The position numbers and the translations under genes are program-made. A stretch of DNA of 40,022 nucleotides from Candidatus Brockarchaeota archaeon (GTDB taxonomy: Archaea > Thermoproteota > EX4484-205 > JAAOZO01), in assembly GCA_017601145.1 (NCBI GenBank), contig JAFNIV010000015.1:1-40022 (forward strand). The letters are read 5' to 3'. The notes under the pieces were generated by a model that saw nothing but the letters and a program-made list of their open reading frames with translations, was not told the DNA's origin and did not search any database. Of this stretch, positions 5,088-18,123 are shown one piece after another (position 1 is the stretch's first letter; every line of letters starts with the position of its first letter).

Positions 5088-5173
5088 TAGTCTAACTTTG
5101 TCAATAGGTAATAAGTTCTTAGTTTATGTTTATTTATTTTAGATTCATTAGTTTAAAATCGACATTTGAATTT

Positions 5174-5187
5174 GCTTAAATTTAAGC
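5174..5187. promoter_or_regulatory. Perfect 14-base palindrome, possible operator
   Basis: GCTTAAATTTAAGC is a perfect palindrome ending 17 bases before the TATA box (5204-5211) of the downstream gene, whose product carries a PadR-like DNA-binding domain. Placement suits autoregulation. It does not match the classical PadR consensus (ATGT-N8-ACAT), and AT-rich palindromes of this length occur by chance every several kilobases. Confidence 0.3.
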
Positions 5188-5203
5188 GAATTCTTTAGAA
5201 AAA

Positions 5204-5211
5204 TATATAAG
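5204..5211 (+). promoter_or_regulatory. TATA box for the threonine-synthase-like/PadR gene
   Basis: TATATAAG, a near-consensus archaeal TATA box, predicts a transcript start around 5232-5236 and a short leader containing an AGGT site before the ATG at 5248. Confidence 0.65.
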
Positions 5212-5247
5212 CATTAACTTACATATAGGTGATAAAGCAGGTTAAAG

Positions 5248-6669
5248 ATGGCAAAAATAGCTCATCTTAGATGTACTAACTGCGGAGAAACTTATGATTT
5301 TGATATTAATCTTAAGTTGTGTAAGAAATGTGGAAGTGGGCTTTCAGTCGAGCTAAACTACAGCGATAAATTCGAATACTTAGACTCTCAAATCGGGTTA
5401 TGGAAGTTTGCATCAATACTTCCAGAAGTTAAAGAAATTTTTAGAATTTCTCTTGGCGAAGGAAATACTGTGCTGCATAGGAGTAAAAGAATAGAAAATG
5501 AGTTAGGAATTAAAGAGTTATTTCTAAAAGATGAAACTGTGGAACCTACTGGTTCATATCTGGATAGAAGTTCTGCCCTCTTTATGTCGTTTGCGTTGAT
5601 GTATGGTATAAAAAGAATAATTACCTATTCGACAGGAAACCTTGGTGCCTCTTTATCTGCCTATTCTTCGAAATCAGGAATCAGTTTACAAGCATATGTA
5701 AAGCAAGGTATTGATCTTGGGAAACTTTATCAAATGATTGCATATGGCGCCAACGTAAGTGTAGTTGAAGCTTTTAAAGAACTAAAAAGTAAAGAAGGAG
5801 CTGTTGTAGTAACAGAGTATGATCCTTTAGTTAATGAAGCGAAAAAAACTATAATGAGCGAAGTGTTTCACCAACTTAACTTCAGACTTCCAGATTATGT
5901 AATAGTTCCAATGGGTGAAGGAGGTCTTGCTTATGCTACTTATAAGGCGCTAAATGAACTTAAATTTTTTTTAAAAAATATAAAAAACCCTAAAACAAGG
6001 ATAATAGGAGTCCAACCAGAAGGTTGTGCGCCGATCGTAAAAGCATATTTTAGAAGTTCAAGTGCAGTTGAACCAGAAATCACGCCTAAGACCAGAATTT
6101 TTGACTTAAACATTGCCGATCCAAAGTTCGGAAACGCTGCATTAAGAGTAATAAAAGAAACAGAAGGTATCGCAGTTTCAGTTAATGAGGAAGAAATTCT
6201 AGATGCTATAAGTTTCTTAGCAGAAAAAGAAGGACTACTTGCTGAACCAGCTGCAAGCTTAACAATAGCAGCACTAAAAAAATTAATTGAGCATAAAGAA
6301 ATAAAAAAAGAATCTACTGTAGTGTGCTTTATAACTGGAAGTGGCCTAAAGGATCCAAGAATTCTAAAAGAACTCGCTCTCCGAAAGTCAAACTTAGGGA
6401 CATTAATTGAAGAACTTAGTGGTGGAAAAACGTTAAGCTCTACAAAGGTGAAGATCTTAAAGATTCTATCTGAGAAGGATGCATATGGCTATCAAATTTG
6501 GAGAGAACTAAAAGAAAAGTACGAACTGAACATAAGGATTCCAACAGTTTATCAGCATTTACTTGATCTAATTAATGATGGCTATGTAAAAAAATCAGAG
6601 ACAATCACAACTTCTGGAAGAAAAAGAATATACTACAAATTAACAGATAGAGGAAAAGCTCTTATATGA
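5248..6669 (+). CDS. Threonine-synthase-like pseudoenzyme fused to a PadR-type winged helix
   Basis: A 473-residue three-part protein. Residues 1-30 form a zinc ribbon (C9, C12, C25, C28), as in many archaeal threonine synthases. Residues about 55-390 are a fold-type II PLP domain: LKDET..PTGS motif, STGN loop, a weak glycine-rich loop and a GSGLKDP ending. Residues about 395-473 are a winged helix with the PadR pattern LKILSEKDAYGYQIW, TVYQHL and a basic wing. The PLP-binding lysine of the PTGSFKDR motif is replaced: the gene reads PTGSYLDR, with L105 coded by CTG at 5560-5562, so normal PLP catalysis is not expected. I infer a ligand-sensing transcription regulator derived from threonine synthase. 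Annotation as a working ThrC would be wrong on this evidence. Confidence 0.8.
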   Translation: MAKIAHLRCTNCGETYDFDINLKLCKKCGSGLSVELNYSDKFEYLDSQIGLWKFASILPEVKEIFRISLGEGNTVLHRSKRIENELGIKELFLKDETVEPTGSYLDRSSALFMSFALMYGIKRIITYSTGNLGASLSAYSSKSGISLQAYVKQGIDLGKLYQMIAYGANVSVVEAFKELKSKEGAVVVTEYDPLVNEAKKTIMSEVFHQLNFRLPDYVIVPMGEGGLAYATYKALNELKFFLKNIKNPKTRIIGVQPEGCAPIVKAYFRSSSAVEPEITPKTRIFDLNIADPKFGNAALRVIKETEGIAVSVNEEEILDAISFLAEKEGLLAEPAASLTIAALKKLIEHKEIKKESTVVCFITGSGLKDPRILKELALRKSNLGTLIEELSGGKTLSSTKVKILKILSEKDAYGYQIWRELKEKYELNIRIPTVYQHLLDLINDGYVKKSETITTSGRKRIYYKLTDRGKALI

Positions 6670-15064: not shown

Positions 15065-15832
15065 TCATGAAATAAGTGAGATTATCCTATCAACATACTT
15101 GAAGAAACTTCTTGTTTTTGTATTTCTTGGTCTTGGAAGGTCTATCTTCACTTCTTCAATTACTTTTGCTGGTCTTCCTGAGAGCACAATTGCCTTATCA
15201 ACTAAGTACACTACTTCTTCAACATTATGTGAAACTATTATTCCAGCTTCTACAGGAGTCTCTGTTGATTTTACCAACCTTATAAGAAGATCTCTAAGTC
15301 CTCTTGCAGTTAATTCATCTAATGATGAGAGTGGTTCATCCATTAACAAAAGAGAAGGCTCTCTAGCAAGAGCTCTTGCAAGCCCTACTCTTTGTTTCAT
15401 ACCTCCAGAAATTTCACGAGGGAAAAACTTCTCAAATCCATCTAAACCAACGAACTTTATGTATTTACTTACTCTTTCCTTTTTTTCCTTCTCTGGTATG
15501 TTTAAGCTATCTAAACCCAATTCAACGTTTTGCTCAACAGTTAGCCAAGGCACCAATGCAAAGGTTTGAAAAACAAAGCTCATTCCATCTGAAGGTTGTA
15601 GTACTTCTTTCCCTTTAAAGAGAACTTTTCCTCCTGAAGGACGTATCATACCATCAATTATCCTTAATAGCGTACTCTTTCCACAGCCAGAAGGGCCAAT
15701 AATGCCAACAAATTCTCCTTCGTTAACTGAAAAACTTATGTTTTGTATTACTTGAAATTCTTTATTTTCAACAATGAATACCTTTTCTACATTCCTTACT
15801 TCTAGTATTGGAATTGGTTTTTTACTTTCCAT
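15065..15832 (-). CDS. ABC transporter ATP-binding protein, NitT/TauT (SsuB) type
   Basis: A 255-residue ATPase with Walker A GPSGCGKST, Q-loop FVFQTFALVPW, signature SGGMKQRVGLARAL, Walker B LLLMDEP, D-loop SSLDE and the switch histidine in IIVSHNVEE. The sequence style (VPWLTVEQNVELGL, VLSGRPAKV) is that of nitrate/sulfonate/taurine-type importers. The start is ATG at 15832: GGTGA at 15838-15842 sits five bases before it, and the upstream permease stop is one base away. It lacks the C-terminal AAA-associated domain common in archaeal relatives; that domain is encoded separately by the convergent neighbour. Confidence 0.93.
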   Translation of the reverse strand: MESKKPIPILEVRNVEKVFIVENKEFQVIQNISFSVNEGEFVGIIGPSGCGKSTLLRIIDGMIRPSGGKVLFKGKEVLQPSDGMSFVFQTFALVPWLTVEQNVELGLDSLNIPEKEKKERVSKYIKFVGLDGFEKFFPREISGGMKQRVGLARALAREPSLLLMDEPLSSLDELTARGLRDLLIRLVKSTETPVEAGIIVSHNVEEVVYLVDKAIVLSGRPAKVIEEVKIDLPRPRNTKTRSFFKYVDRIISLIS

Positions 15833-15833
15833 T

Positions 15834-17519
15834 TTAATCACCAAATCTAAACCTCTTTATTCTATTTAAAATTGGAACCCAAACAAGCCTATCAAAAGTT
15901 GCAACAAAAACAATAAAAACAAATAAACCTACAGTTAAAGCAACAACATTTCCAGCATTTGAATATTTATTTAGAAAAGATCCTATTCCTCTTACTGTAA
16001 GTACTTGAGATCCAAAAGTTATATATTCTGATACAACTAGAGCATTATAACCTCCCCCAAATGCTTGTATTGTGCCATAGAATATTCCTCCAGCTGCAGC
16101 TGGTAAGTATATTCTTAGTATTTTAGTGGATGTTTTTGCTTTGAAAGATTTCAGCATTTCTTCTATATCTTCAGGTATGTTACTAAGAGAAATTACTACG
16201 TTAAAGAGAAGATACCAAATCATACCAGTCATAGTTAAAACTAAGCTTATCAGATTAATAGAGAACTGATTTATGCCCATAATTGAAGAAATGAAAACTA
16301 TCAAAAATGGAAAGAATGCTATTGCAGGAGTTGACTGCATAATATCAAAAATTGGAAGAAGTAGTTTCCTCAATACTGTTCTTGCAGCTATTATTCCTAG
16401 AGGAATTACTAAGAAAAGAGTTACAATATAAGCTGTAAAAACTCTAAAAAATGAGTAGATCATGCATATTGATGCCTCAACTATTATTAGCAAAGATGCT
16501 TGTAACTGTGTAAAACTAAAATTGGTAGGTTGGATTGAGTAAAGAGAAAATGCAAGATAAATAACTATTAAAAAGATTAAGACAATTTTAGTAAATTTAA
16601 CAAAAGTATCAAATGTGTTTCTTACTCTTTGTCTAGAAGTTAAAACAGAATTAAAGAAAAAATAAACTTTTTCTAAAGTTCTAAGAATAACTTTTGTAAA
16701 ACTAAATATGAGCTTTATTGTTAGAGCTGGTTTATGAGTTACTTCGCCAGAAGTAAACTCGTACCTAAAATTTTTACTAAACTCACTCAAAGGTGACCAA
16801 AATATCTCATGTATAAATACAACAATCAATAAAAGAACTAACAAACCAAGAAGGTATTCTTTTAGGTTTCCAGTGTAAGCTGAATAAAACAAAAATGTAC
16901 CTAATCCAGGTAAGTTTACTTGTTCGTTACCTAAACTAAAACTTTCAGCTGCCATCAAAAAATACCATCCTCCTCCAAAGGCCAAAATGCTTCCGCTCAC
17001 TAAAAAAGGAAAGGTGTAAGGAAGCAATATCTTGATTATAAAGCTAGATTCCCTTTGGTTAAATGCTTTTTTAAGCTCTAGTAGATCTGAAGGAATTGTT
17101 GTAAATCCTTCGAGCGCAGAATACATTAAAGCCCATGCTTGGCTAGTAAATATCAGGAATATCGAAACTAACTCAGTCCCAAGCCTTCCAGGAGCAAGTT
17201 GCCTTATTACGAGCAAGCCTGCTGGTAAAAAACCAAGTATAGGAACAGATTGTAGAACATCTAACACAGGAAAAATATACTTCACTAAATGTTCTGATCT
17301 TGAGACCCAAATTTCAAGAAGTATCGCAGAAATTAGTCCAAGAAGATAAGCAGTAGTCATTCTTCCAAGTGAAAAAAGAGAAAGAATAGCTAAGTTTCCC
17401 AGAGAAGCTTCAAGTAAATTAGCTCTAATAGTAACTAGTCTTGCTGGTACCCAAGTTAGCAAAATGGTAGCAAGCAAAGTAAAAAAATAAAGCTTTTTTC
17501 TTGTAAGTACTATTAGCAT
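15834..17519 (-). CDS. Duplicated (two-domain) NitT/TauT-type ABC permease
   Basis: Integral membrane protein of about 561 residues formed by two tandem binding-protein-dependent permease domains. Each half carries an EAA-like loop: LDVLQSVPILGFLP with LLPYTFPFLVSG in the first, FDIMQSTPAIAFFPF with YLPAAAGGIFYG in the second. A single polypeptide therefore supplies the usual permease dimer. The frame also allows a TTG at 17537; I chose the ATG at 17519, without strong Shine-Dalgarno support. No periplasmic or lipoprotein substrate-binding gene is nearby. It lies between an S-component-like gene and the ATPase on the same strand. Confidence 0.87.
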   Translation of the reverse strand: MLIVLTRKKLYFFTLLATILLTWVPARLVTIRANLLEASLGNLAILSLFSLGRMTTAYLLGLISAILLEIWVSRSEHLVKYIFPVLDVLQSVPILGFLPAGLLVIRQLAPGRLGTELVSIFLIFTSQAWALMYSALEGFTTIPSDLLELKKAFNQRESSFIIKILLPYTFPFLVSGSILAFGGGWYFLMAAESFSLGNEQVNLPGLGTFLFYSAYTGNLKEYLLGLLVLLLIVVFIHEIFWSPLSEFSKNFRYEFTSGEVTHKPALTIKLIFSFTKVILRTLEKVYFFFNSVLTSRQRVRNTFDTFVKFTKIVLIFLIVIYLAFSLYSIQPTNFSFTQLQASLLIIVEASICMIYSFFRVFTAYIVTLFLVIPLGIIAARTVLRKLLLPIFDIMQSTPAIAFFPFLIVFISSIMGINQFSINLISLVLTMTGMIWYLLFNVVISLSNIPEDIEEMLKSFKAKTSTKILRIYLPAAAGGIFYGTIQAFGGGYNALVVSEYITFGSQVLTVRGIGSFLNKYSNAGNVVALTVGLFVFIVFVATFDRLVWVPILNRIKRFRFGD

Positions 17520-17577
17520 AATACATCGCCGCTTCAAGTGCTTTATTGAAATTAGTAATTGATAAACTTTTCTTTTT

Positions 17578-18123
17578 CTAATGAATTATTTTTAATTCTT
17601 CTTTTATATTTCCTAAGAACTTCTCAAAATATGGAAGCATTATTTCTAATAGCGCAGCATCTATAGCAATTTCAAGAAACGCTTTAATGTTAATAAGTAC
17701 GATTATAGGAACTAGGATATTAATTTGAATCCCAAGTACTAGGCCTGACCATATAATTACCGTTAACCAAATAAAGGGAGTTTCAACAATTTCCCCAAGT
17801 ATACAAGAAGGAATCACTGAAATCTTTTTTCTCACAAAAGTATGTCTATAAAAGTAACCTGTTGCGAAAGCTAATATAAAGTTTCCAAAAGGAACAAATG
17901 GGTTTTTGATGAAAAGTACGGTCGAAGCTATAGTACTCAAAAATCCAACTATGCCTCCTTCTAGAGAGCCAACGTAGATTGCAGTAAACAGCGCTGGTAA
18001 TTGAGACAACGTAAAGGCTACGTTTACTAATGGTATTGGTAGGGGTATCGAATAAAATCCAAGTATATTGCCAGCAACTCCCATTAGAACAATAAAAACT
18101 AGGGGCTTTGCTTTTATTTTCAT
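17578..18123 (-). CDS. Membrane protein resembling an ECF-transporter S component
   Basis: A 181-residue hydrophobic protein with about five or six membrane segments. Segments such as LSQLPALFTAIYVGSLEGG, GFLSTIAST and NPFVPFGNFILAFATGYFYR match the pattern of ECF S components (substrate-capturing membrane subunits for vitamins and similar compounds). The ligand is not identifiable. It is the first gene of an operon with a NitT-type permease and ATPase; no EcfT or EcfA-type genes are present. I infer it replaces the missing substrate-binding protein. Assignment by pattern only. Confidence 0.6.
   Translation of the reverse strand: MKIKAKPLVFIVLMGVAGNILGFYSIPLPIPLVNVAFTLSQLPALFTAIYVGSLEGGIVGFLSTIASTVLFIKNPFVPFGNFILAFATGYFYRHTFVRKKISVIPSCILGEIVETPFIWLTVIIWSGLVLGIQINILVPIIVLINIKAFLEIAIDAALLEIMLPYFEKFLGNIKEELKIIH

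Follow-up and report, generated by a model that had tools for sequence, protein, structure and literature searches.

A threonine-synthase-like domain joined to a PadR winged helix as a probable regulator of vitamin B6 supply in archaea

Introduction

The known regulators of vitamin B6 are those of the MocR/PdxR type, and bacterial PdxR resembles the protein studied here. In its ligand-free form PdxR is described as an activator of pdxST and a repressor of its own gene, and the binding of PLP ends this state (PMC5320631). The MocR regulators, to which PdxR belongs, are reported to be bacterial and absent from Archaea (PMC5320631), and the control of vitamin B6 in archaea seems to be unknown so far. 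The transporters of B6 are an open puzzle in most prokaryotes (PMC9997740). The S-component HmpT was formerly believed to carry HMP; pyridoxamine is the substrate that was extracted from it (PMC4860826). At archaeal promoters, activators bind upstream of the BRE/TATA elements and repressors bind downstream of them (PMC4158304).

The window analyzed here, a stretch of 40,022 nucleotides from a Candidatus Brockarchaeota archaeon, carries a gene that fuses a PALP domain to a PadR domain. The gene belongs to a large, hitherto unrecognized and mainly archaeal PALP-PadR family, the members of which are very probably gene switches that control the synthesis and import of vitamin B6. The window protein is proposed, with a probability of about 0.8, to control the B6 supply in response to PLP, to repress its own gene, and to be the fold type II/PadR counterpart of the bacterial PdxR. 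The evidence is comparative throughout and comes from the loss of a lysine, the conservation of the pocket, gene linkage, operator sites and the geometry of these sites.

Results

The fusion gene and its predicted structure

The gene is an intact open reading frame (Table 1). The PALP domain (PF00291) scores 210.7 bits in Pfam with a cut-off of 35, and the PadR domain also exceeds its gathering cut-off of 27. An AlphaFold2 model of the protein has a mean pLDDT of 91.7 and a pTM of 0.80, and its top Foldseek matches are all threonine synthases. Threonine synthases (2zsj) are also the solved structures closest by sequence, with an E value of 6.4e-97 for the profile match. Residues 100-107 read PTGSYLDR, and Leu105 aligns exactly with the lysine of PTGSFKDR in solved threonine synthases. 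The original prediction had described this motif, its CTG codon and the PadR winged helix; the reading frame, Pfam and the alignment agree with it in every detail. Among the putative zinc-ribbon cysteines, C9, C12 and C28 are invariant in a 60-sequence alignment and C25 is nearly so. The N-terminal CxxC...CxxC arrangement is also found in unfused archaeal ThrC-like proteins.

Table 1. Positions of the fusion gene, its domains and the elements upstream of it, numbered within the window
Feature	Position	Strand	Evidence
26-bp inverted repeat GAATTTGCTTAAA/TTTAAGCGAATTC, immediately upstream of the TATA-like element	5168..5193	.	sequence
TATA-box-like element AAATATATAAGC of the regulator promoter	5201..5212	+	sequence
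Predicted operator copy CTTACATATAGG (consensus CCTATATATAGG), between the TATA-like element and the ATG	5218..5229	.	
PALP-PadR fusion gene, 473 aa, proposed PLP/vitamin B6 regulator	5248..6669	+	ORF, Pfam, AlphaFold2, Foldseek
Putative N-terminal zinc ribbon CxxC...CxxC (Cys9, 12, 25, 28)	5272..5331	+	sequence, alignment
Threonine-synthase-like fold type II (PALP) sensor domain, residues 67-364	5446..6339	+	PF00291; profile match to 2zsj
Leu105 codon (CTG), Schiff-base lysine position	5560..5562	+	sequence; family survey
PadR winged-helix DNA-binding domain, residues 403-471	6454..6660	+	Pfam PF03551, 52.1 bits

Loss of the Schiff-base lysine across the family

Relatives in the genome set together with named records gave 83 distinct PALP-PadR fusions, and the lysine column is readable in 81 of them. 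The records carry labels such as Thor-, Loki-, Heimdall- and Jordarchaeota, Bathyarchaeota, Thermoplasmata, Nitrososphaerales, Terraquivivens and Desulfurococcales. Gene starts were assigned by an automatic procedure, the sampled genomes are mostly metagenome assemblies, and a few labels are possibly wrong (e.g. a 'Thermococcus' bin). The lysine is missing from 76 of the 81 scorable fusions, which come from Thermoproteota, Asgard archaea and other groups. The column holds R in 36 proteins, L in 28, I in four, M and T in three each, V and A in one each, and K in five. All 66 complete unfused relatives have K, and this column discriminates between the fused and unfused sets better than any other. 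One apparent unfused protein without the lysine (L142, with R) was rejected as such, since the sequence of its locus stops short of where the PadR region would lie. A sequencing error and an alternative aligned lysine, either of which would have undermined the idea of a dead enzyme, were both examined and neither was found. Leu105 is not a sequencing error, because L, I, M, V, T, A or R takes the place of the lysine in orthologues that come from independent genomes; the alignment contains no replacement lysine column gained in the fused proteins.

The five fusions that keep the lysine (L057, L059, L060, L070 and L054) are four from Lokiarchaeota and one from Bathyarchaeota. They read PTNSFKDR or YTNSFKDR, yet they are without the ThrC substrate residues. 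An ECF-transporter S-component gene adjoins four of the five; therefore, the loss of the lysine is not strictly needed for this linkage. The Lokiarchaeal proteins among them show that the lysine can stay in the sensor.

In a tree built without the lysine column the fusions fall into two subclades. One is mostly aliphatic at this position (29 rows, SH-aLRT 97) and the other has Arg or Lys (36 rows including L142, SH-aLRT 100). Both lie inside one 67-row branch (support 86), and the tree requires three changes of the lysine state. The fusion probably arose only once, but this is less than certain because the branch also contains two unfused rows.

PLP pocket and loss of threonine-synthase function

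The window protein has the Asn, Gly loop and Thr of the ThrC pocket as N131, G223, G225 and T363, which we take to be contacts of the PLP ring and phosphate. These residues are kept in the fusions almost without exception (Asn131 in 81/81, Gly223 in 82/83, Gly225 in 83/83 and Thr363 in 80/83). The residues N154, S155 and R160 of the T. thermophilus threonine synthase presumably make up the substrate-phosphate site and correspond to three columns of the alignment (N..S..R). N, S and R occupy these columns in all 32 proteins of the ThrC clade (32/32), whereas neither the N nor the R occurs there in any fused protein. The window protein has Leu105 in place of the Schiff-base lysine of PTGSFKDR, and its score of 138 bits against TIGR00260 is below the cut-off of 167. 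The same genome has a separate, canonical thrC beside thrB that scores 304.5 bits; its product bears the lysine and looks active. Two further lysine-bearing ThrC-like paralogues are also present. Since the N..S..R residues are lost and the genome contains a canonical thrC and other lysine-bearing paralogues, the sequences indicate that catalysis is not the job of the window protein and that it is not a threonine synthase.

The original prediction of a dead threonine-synthase scaffold that serves as a transcriptional sensor is well supported by the loss of the lysine, the separate ThrC, the gene context and the operators. The effectors that it proposed fared differently. Phosphohomoserine is disfavored by the loss of N..S..R, and threonine by the scarcity of thrC neighbors and by the distribution of operator-like sites. 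PLP is favored because the genes that are linked to the fusions or marked by operators are pdxST and that of an HmpT-like S-component.

Gene neighborhood

Clustering of the neighboring genes revealed that most fusion genes are next to a gene for a small membrane protein. It belongs to PF07155, an ECF-transporter S-component family that Pfam names riboflavin transporter S-component, and its nearest solved relative is HmpT (4HZU chain S, E values of 2e-20 to 1e-9). Neighbors were counted in the 72 fusion loci for which each flank extends over 700 nt or more. The S-component gene adjoins the fusion gene in 45 of these loci, pdxS/T in four and thrC in four, so that a B6 gene is a neighbor in 49 and is not next door in 23. 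Among the unfused relatives, a B6 gene (S-component or pdxST) is a neighbor in none of 59 loci. In the aliphatic clade the S-component gene is divergent in 18 of 20 cases, and in the R clade it is downstream on the same strand in 21 of 21. In other loci the pdxS-pdxT genes, which encode the PLP synthase, are divergent from the fusion gene. These include G006, with the predicted operator situated between the regulator and pdxS, and G009, both of which belong to the window's own order, and the pdxST-divergent loci are found in genomes labelled Thermoplasmata, Nitrososphaerales and Heimdallarchaeota as well as in window-related genomes. The thrC gene is divergent from the fusion gene in four Bathyarchaeal loci and in G099 (L142). 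PdxS and PdxT were identified in the window's genome, where pdxS-pdxT and the S-component gene are on another contig (C24), apart from the regulator. One distant solved homologue and the gene context suggest that the S-component may be a B6 importer.

Several other observations concern the membrane proteins and their surroundings. The Glu, Asn and Gln of the HmpT pocket are seemingly kept in the S-components (L202 5965-6702 and others), and the archaeal HmpT-like S-components have Lys in place of His in the LVIHG of HmpT; both points were read off the alignment. A gene for an AIR-synthase/HypE/ThiL-like protein (L202, on contig C24 of the window's genome, 4911-5972, minus strand) overlaps the end of the S-component gene. 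In the sister genome it comes directly after that gene, and it lies near the fusion gene in nine loci; its product is a candidate for a B6-vitamer kinase or partner. At L148 5188-5913 and L049 1-1455 (both minus strand), fusion genes have other membrane proteins as divergent neighbors, in L148 together with a perfect operator; these are possible further candidates for B6 transporters. The window itself also contains a cluster at 15065-18123 on the minus strand, with an ABC ATPase, a permease and an S-component-like small membrane protein, which is unrelated to the finding.

Predicted operator

In the aliphatic clade the palindrome CCTATATATAGG lies near the start of the fusion gene and is perfect in 14 of 40 promoters. 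With up to two mismatches it is present in 30 of 40 aliphatic-clade promoters, compared to 0 of 40 in the R/K clade (p 2e-13), and in 2% of first-order Markov shuffles; a few promoters, inspected by eye, first revealed the palindrome, which was then scored in all of them, and these family-wide counts include the discovery set. Scans of whole genomes are a more independent test. The form CCTAYRTATAGG (exact or in Y/R forms) occurs about once per genome across 13 genomes, mostly at the regulator. The sister genome G001 has two exact sites; one is before an unlinked pdxS and the other is before an unlinked S-component gene. No exact site was found in the 1.6 Mb of the window's genome. It has 12 sites within one mismatch, which include those in the promoters of the regulator, pdxS and the S-component gene. 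Exact or near matches thus mark these three genes in both genomes. The chance that random sites strike all three promoters is roughly 7e-10. The regulator in the window lies apart from the genes that it is proposed to control, and the link between them consists of operator copies with mismatches. The PALP-PadR protein itself is predicted to bind the palindrome.

Matches inside unrelated genes (G004 C11, G174 C20, G127 C124 and most of the one-mismatch matches in G000) were judged to be due to chance. A search for an R/K-clade operator using inverted repeats and shared 8-mers gave nothing convincing. The 26-bp inverted repeat has 12 of 13 bp paired and is absent at the sister genome's regulator promoter. 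It was rejected as the operator since, of the 205 loci compared, none outside the window's own genome contained its core; it is possibly the site of a second regulator.

Geometry of the operator at promoters

The position of the operator differs between target genes and regulators. At target genes it is immediately upstream of a TATA-like box, mostly with 34-43 nt from the operator end to the ATG (19 of the 25 listed); the outliers have uncertain starts or a neighboring operator copy. At regulators it is between the TATA box and the ATG, 2-25 nt before the ATG in those where an ATG start could be placed (21 of the 30 listed); for the other nine the automatic search picked a later ATG. Most promoters of orthologous regulators have this TATA-like element ahead of the operator, and divergent gene pairs have one operator and one TATA-like element in common. 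Since archaeal sites upstream and downstream of BRE/TATA are associated with activation and repression, respectively, this geometry fits activation of the targets and self-repression.

Discussion

Proposed mechanism and alternative explanations

The proposed mechanism is that the fold type II domain without its Schiff-base lysine would sense PLP or an adduct of PLP. Loss of the lysine would abolish turnover and make the binding of PLP reversible, and the occupancy of the sensor domain would then track free PLP. The PadR winged helix would read out the state of the sensor at the operator. The ligand-free protein would activate pdxST and the B6 transporter while repressing its own gene, and bound PLP would reverse both effects. 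One operator and one TATA element common to both directions could thereby turn pdxST or the B6 importer on and the regulator off. Judging from the fold, the pocket residues and the regulon, PLP is probably the ligand; the sign of the response to PLP could go either way.

Three other explanations were weighed against this proposal. Regulation of another micronutrient imported by an ECF transporter, such as the thiamin precursor HMP or riboflavin, with pdxST as one of several targets, would agree with the Pfam label of the S family, with the earlier belief that HmpT carries HMP, and with the different divergent neighbors of some regulators, which include unidentified membrane proteins. It is very unlikely, given that a divergent pdxST lies beside the regulator in genomes with three different labels and in window-related genomes, an unlinked pdxS carries the same predicted operator, the sensor domain itself is a PLP-binding fold, and the nearest solved S-component is one in which pyridoxamine was found. 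A regulator of the threonine/aspartate family, with a dead ThrC pocket that senses threonine, homoserine or phosphohomoserine and controls thrC, is suggested by the derivation of the fold from ThrC and by the divergent thrC at the Bathyarchaeal loci and G099. This explanation is very unlikely: an S-component or pdxST neighbor is found in 49 of 72 loci versus thrC in 4 of 72, the contig with thrC-thrB (C4) is free of the operator-like sites, of which the window's genome has 12, and the fusions are missing the N..S..R residues that presumably form the substrate-phosphate site of ThrC.

A bifunctional protein that is still an enzyme (e.g. a lyase that uses PLP without Lys or with Arg) and only secondarily a regulator would account for the strict conservation of the PLP-pocket residues and for the lysine in five members. 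It is highly improbable, as seven different residues, mostly aliphatic or Arg, replace the lysine, the substrate residues are gone with no alternative lysine column, and the genome also encodes ThrC-like paralogues that do bear the lysine. The preferred explanation remains a regulator that adjusts the B6 supply in response to PLP.

Significance and comparison with known systems

The PALP-PadR family offers a candidate regulator, operator, regulon and B6 importer in Asgard archaea, Thermoproteota and other archaea. No earlier description of a fold type II PLP transcription factor or an archaeal B6 regulator was found in the open-access literature that was searched. The family may well be the first of PLP-sensing transcription factors with fold type II and include the first archaeal B6 regulator, with a pseudoenzyme that binds PLP reversibly and an operator and TATA element shared by two directions.

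The window protein resembles ThrC (TIGR00260, PRK08197; PDB 2zsj, 6nmx and 1v7c) in its fold, its archaeal zinc-ribbon-like Cys pairs and its PLP-binding residues. However, the fusions mostly lack the Schiff-base lysine, lack N..S..R and have an added PadR domain, and the window protein scores under the ThrC cut-offs. Its C-terminal winged helix is that of the PadR family (PF03551), but here it is attached to a 370-residue sensor domain derived from an enzyme. The NCBIfam model PRK05638 (NF004170), an equivalog model named threonine synthase, spans the whole PALP-PadR architecture. The window protein scores 264 against its cut-off of 421, and L118 and L119 exceed this cut-off. Since these two members read PTGSFRDR, with Arg for Lys, whereas the name implies catalysis, the name is probably a systematic misannotation, and this curated family is suggested to carry the wrong function.

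The closest functional likeness is to PdxR, a member of the MocR subfamily of GntR regulators. In both cases the fold of a PLP enzyme is joined to a winged helix, the regulator gene can be divergent from pdxST, and the regulon consists of PLP synthesis and B6 transport. The linkage and the predicted operators are common to the fusion genes and the genes of pdxST and B6 transport, and the geometry of the operators fits the target activation and self-repression described for apo-PdxR. The two differ in that PdxR has the fold type I of aminotransferases and an N-terminal GntR domain, whereas the window protein has fold type II, according to its sequence and predicted structure, and a C-terminal PadR domain; the lysine is also mostly missing in the PALP-PadR fusions. 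Different PLP folds have thus very likely been combined with a winged helix into a B6 switch on two or more occasions. The PALP-PadR family would function as PdxR does but falls outside MocR, because the PLP fold, the DNA-binding domain and the domain order are different and MocR regulators are reported to be absent from Archaea.
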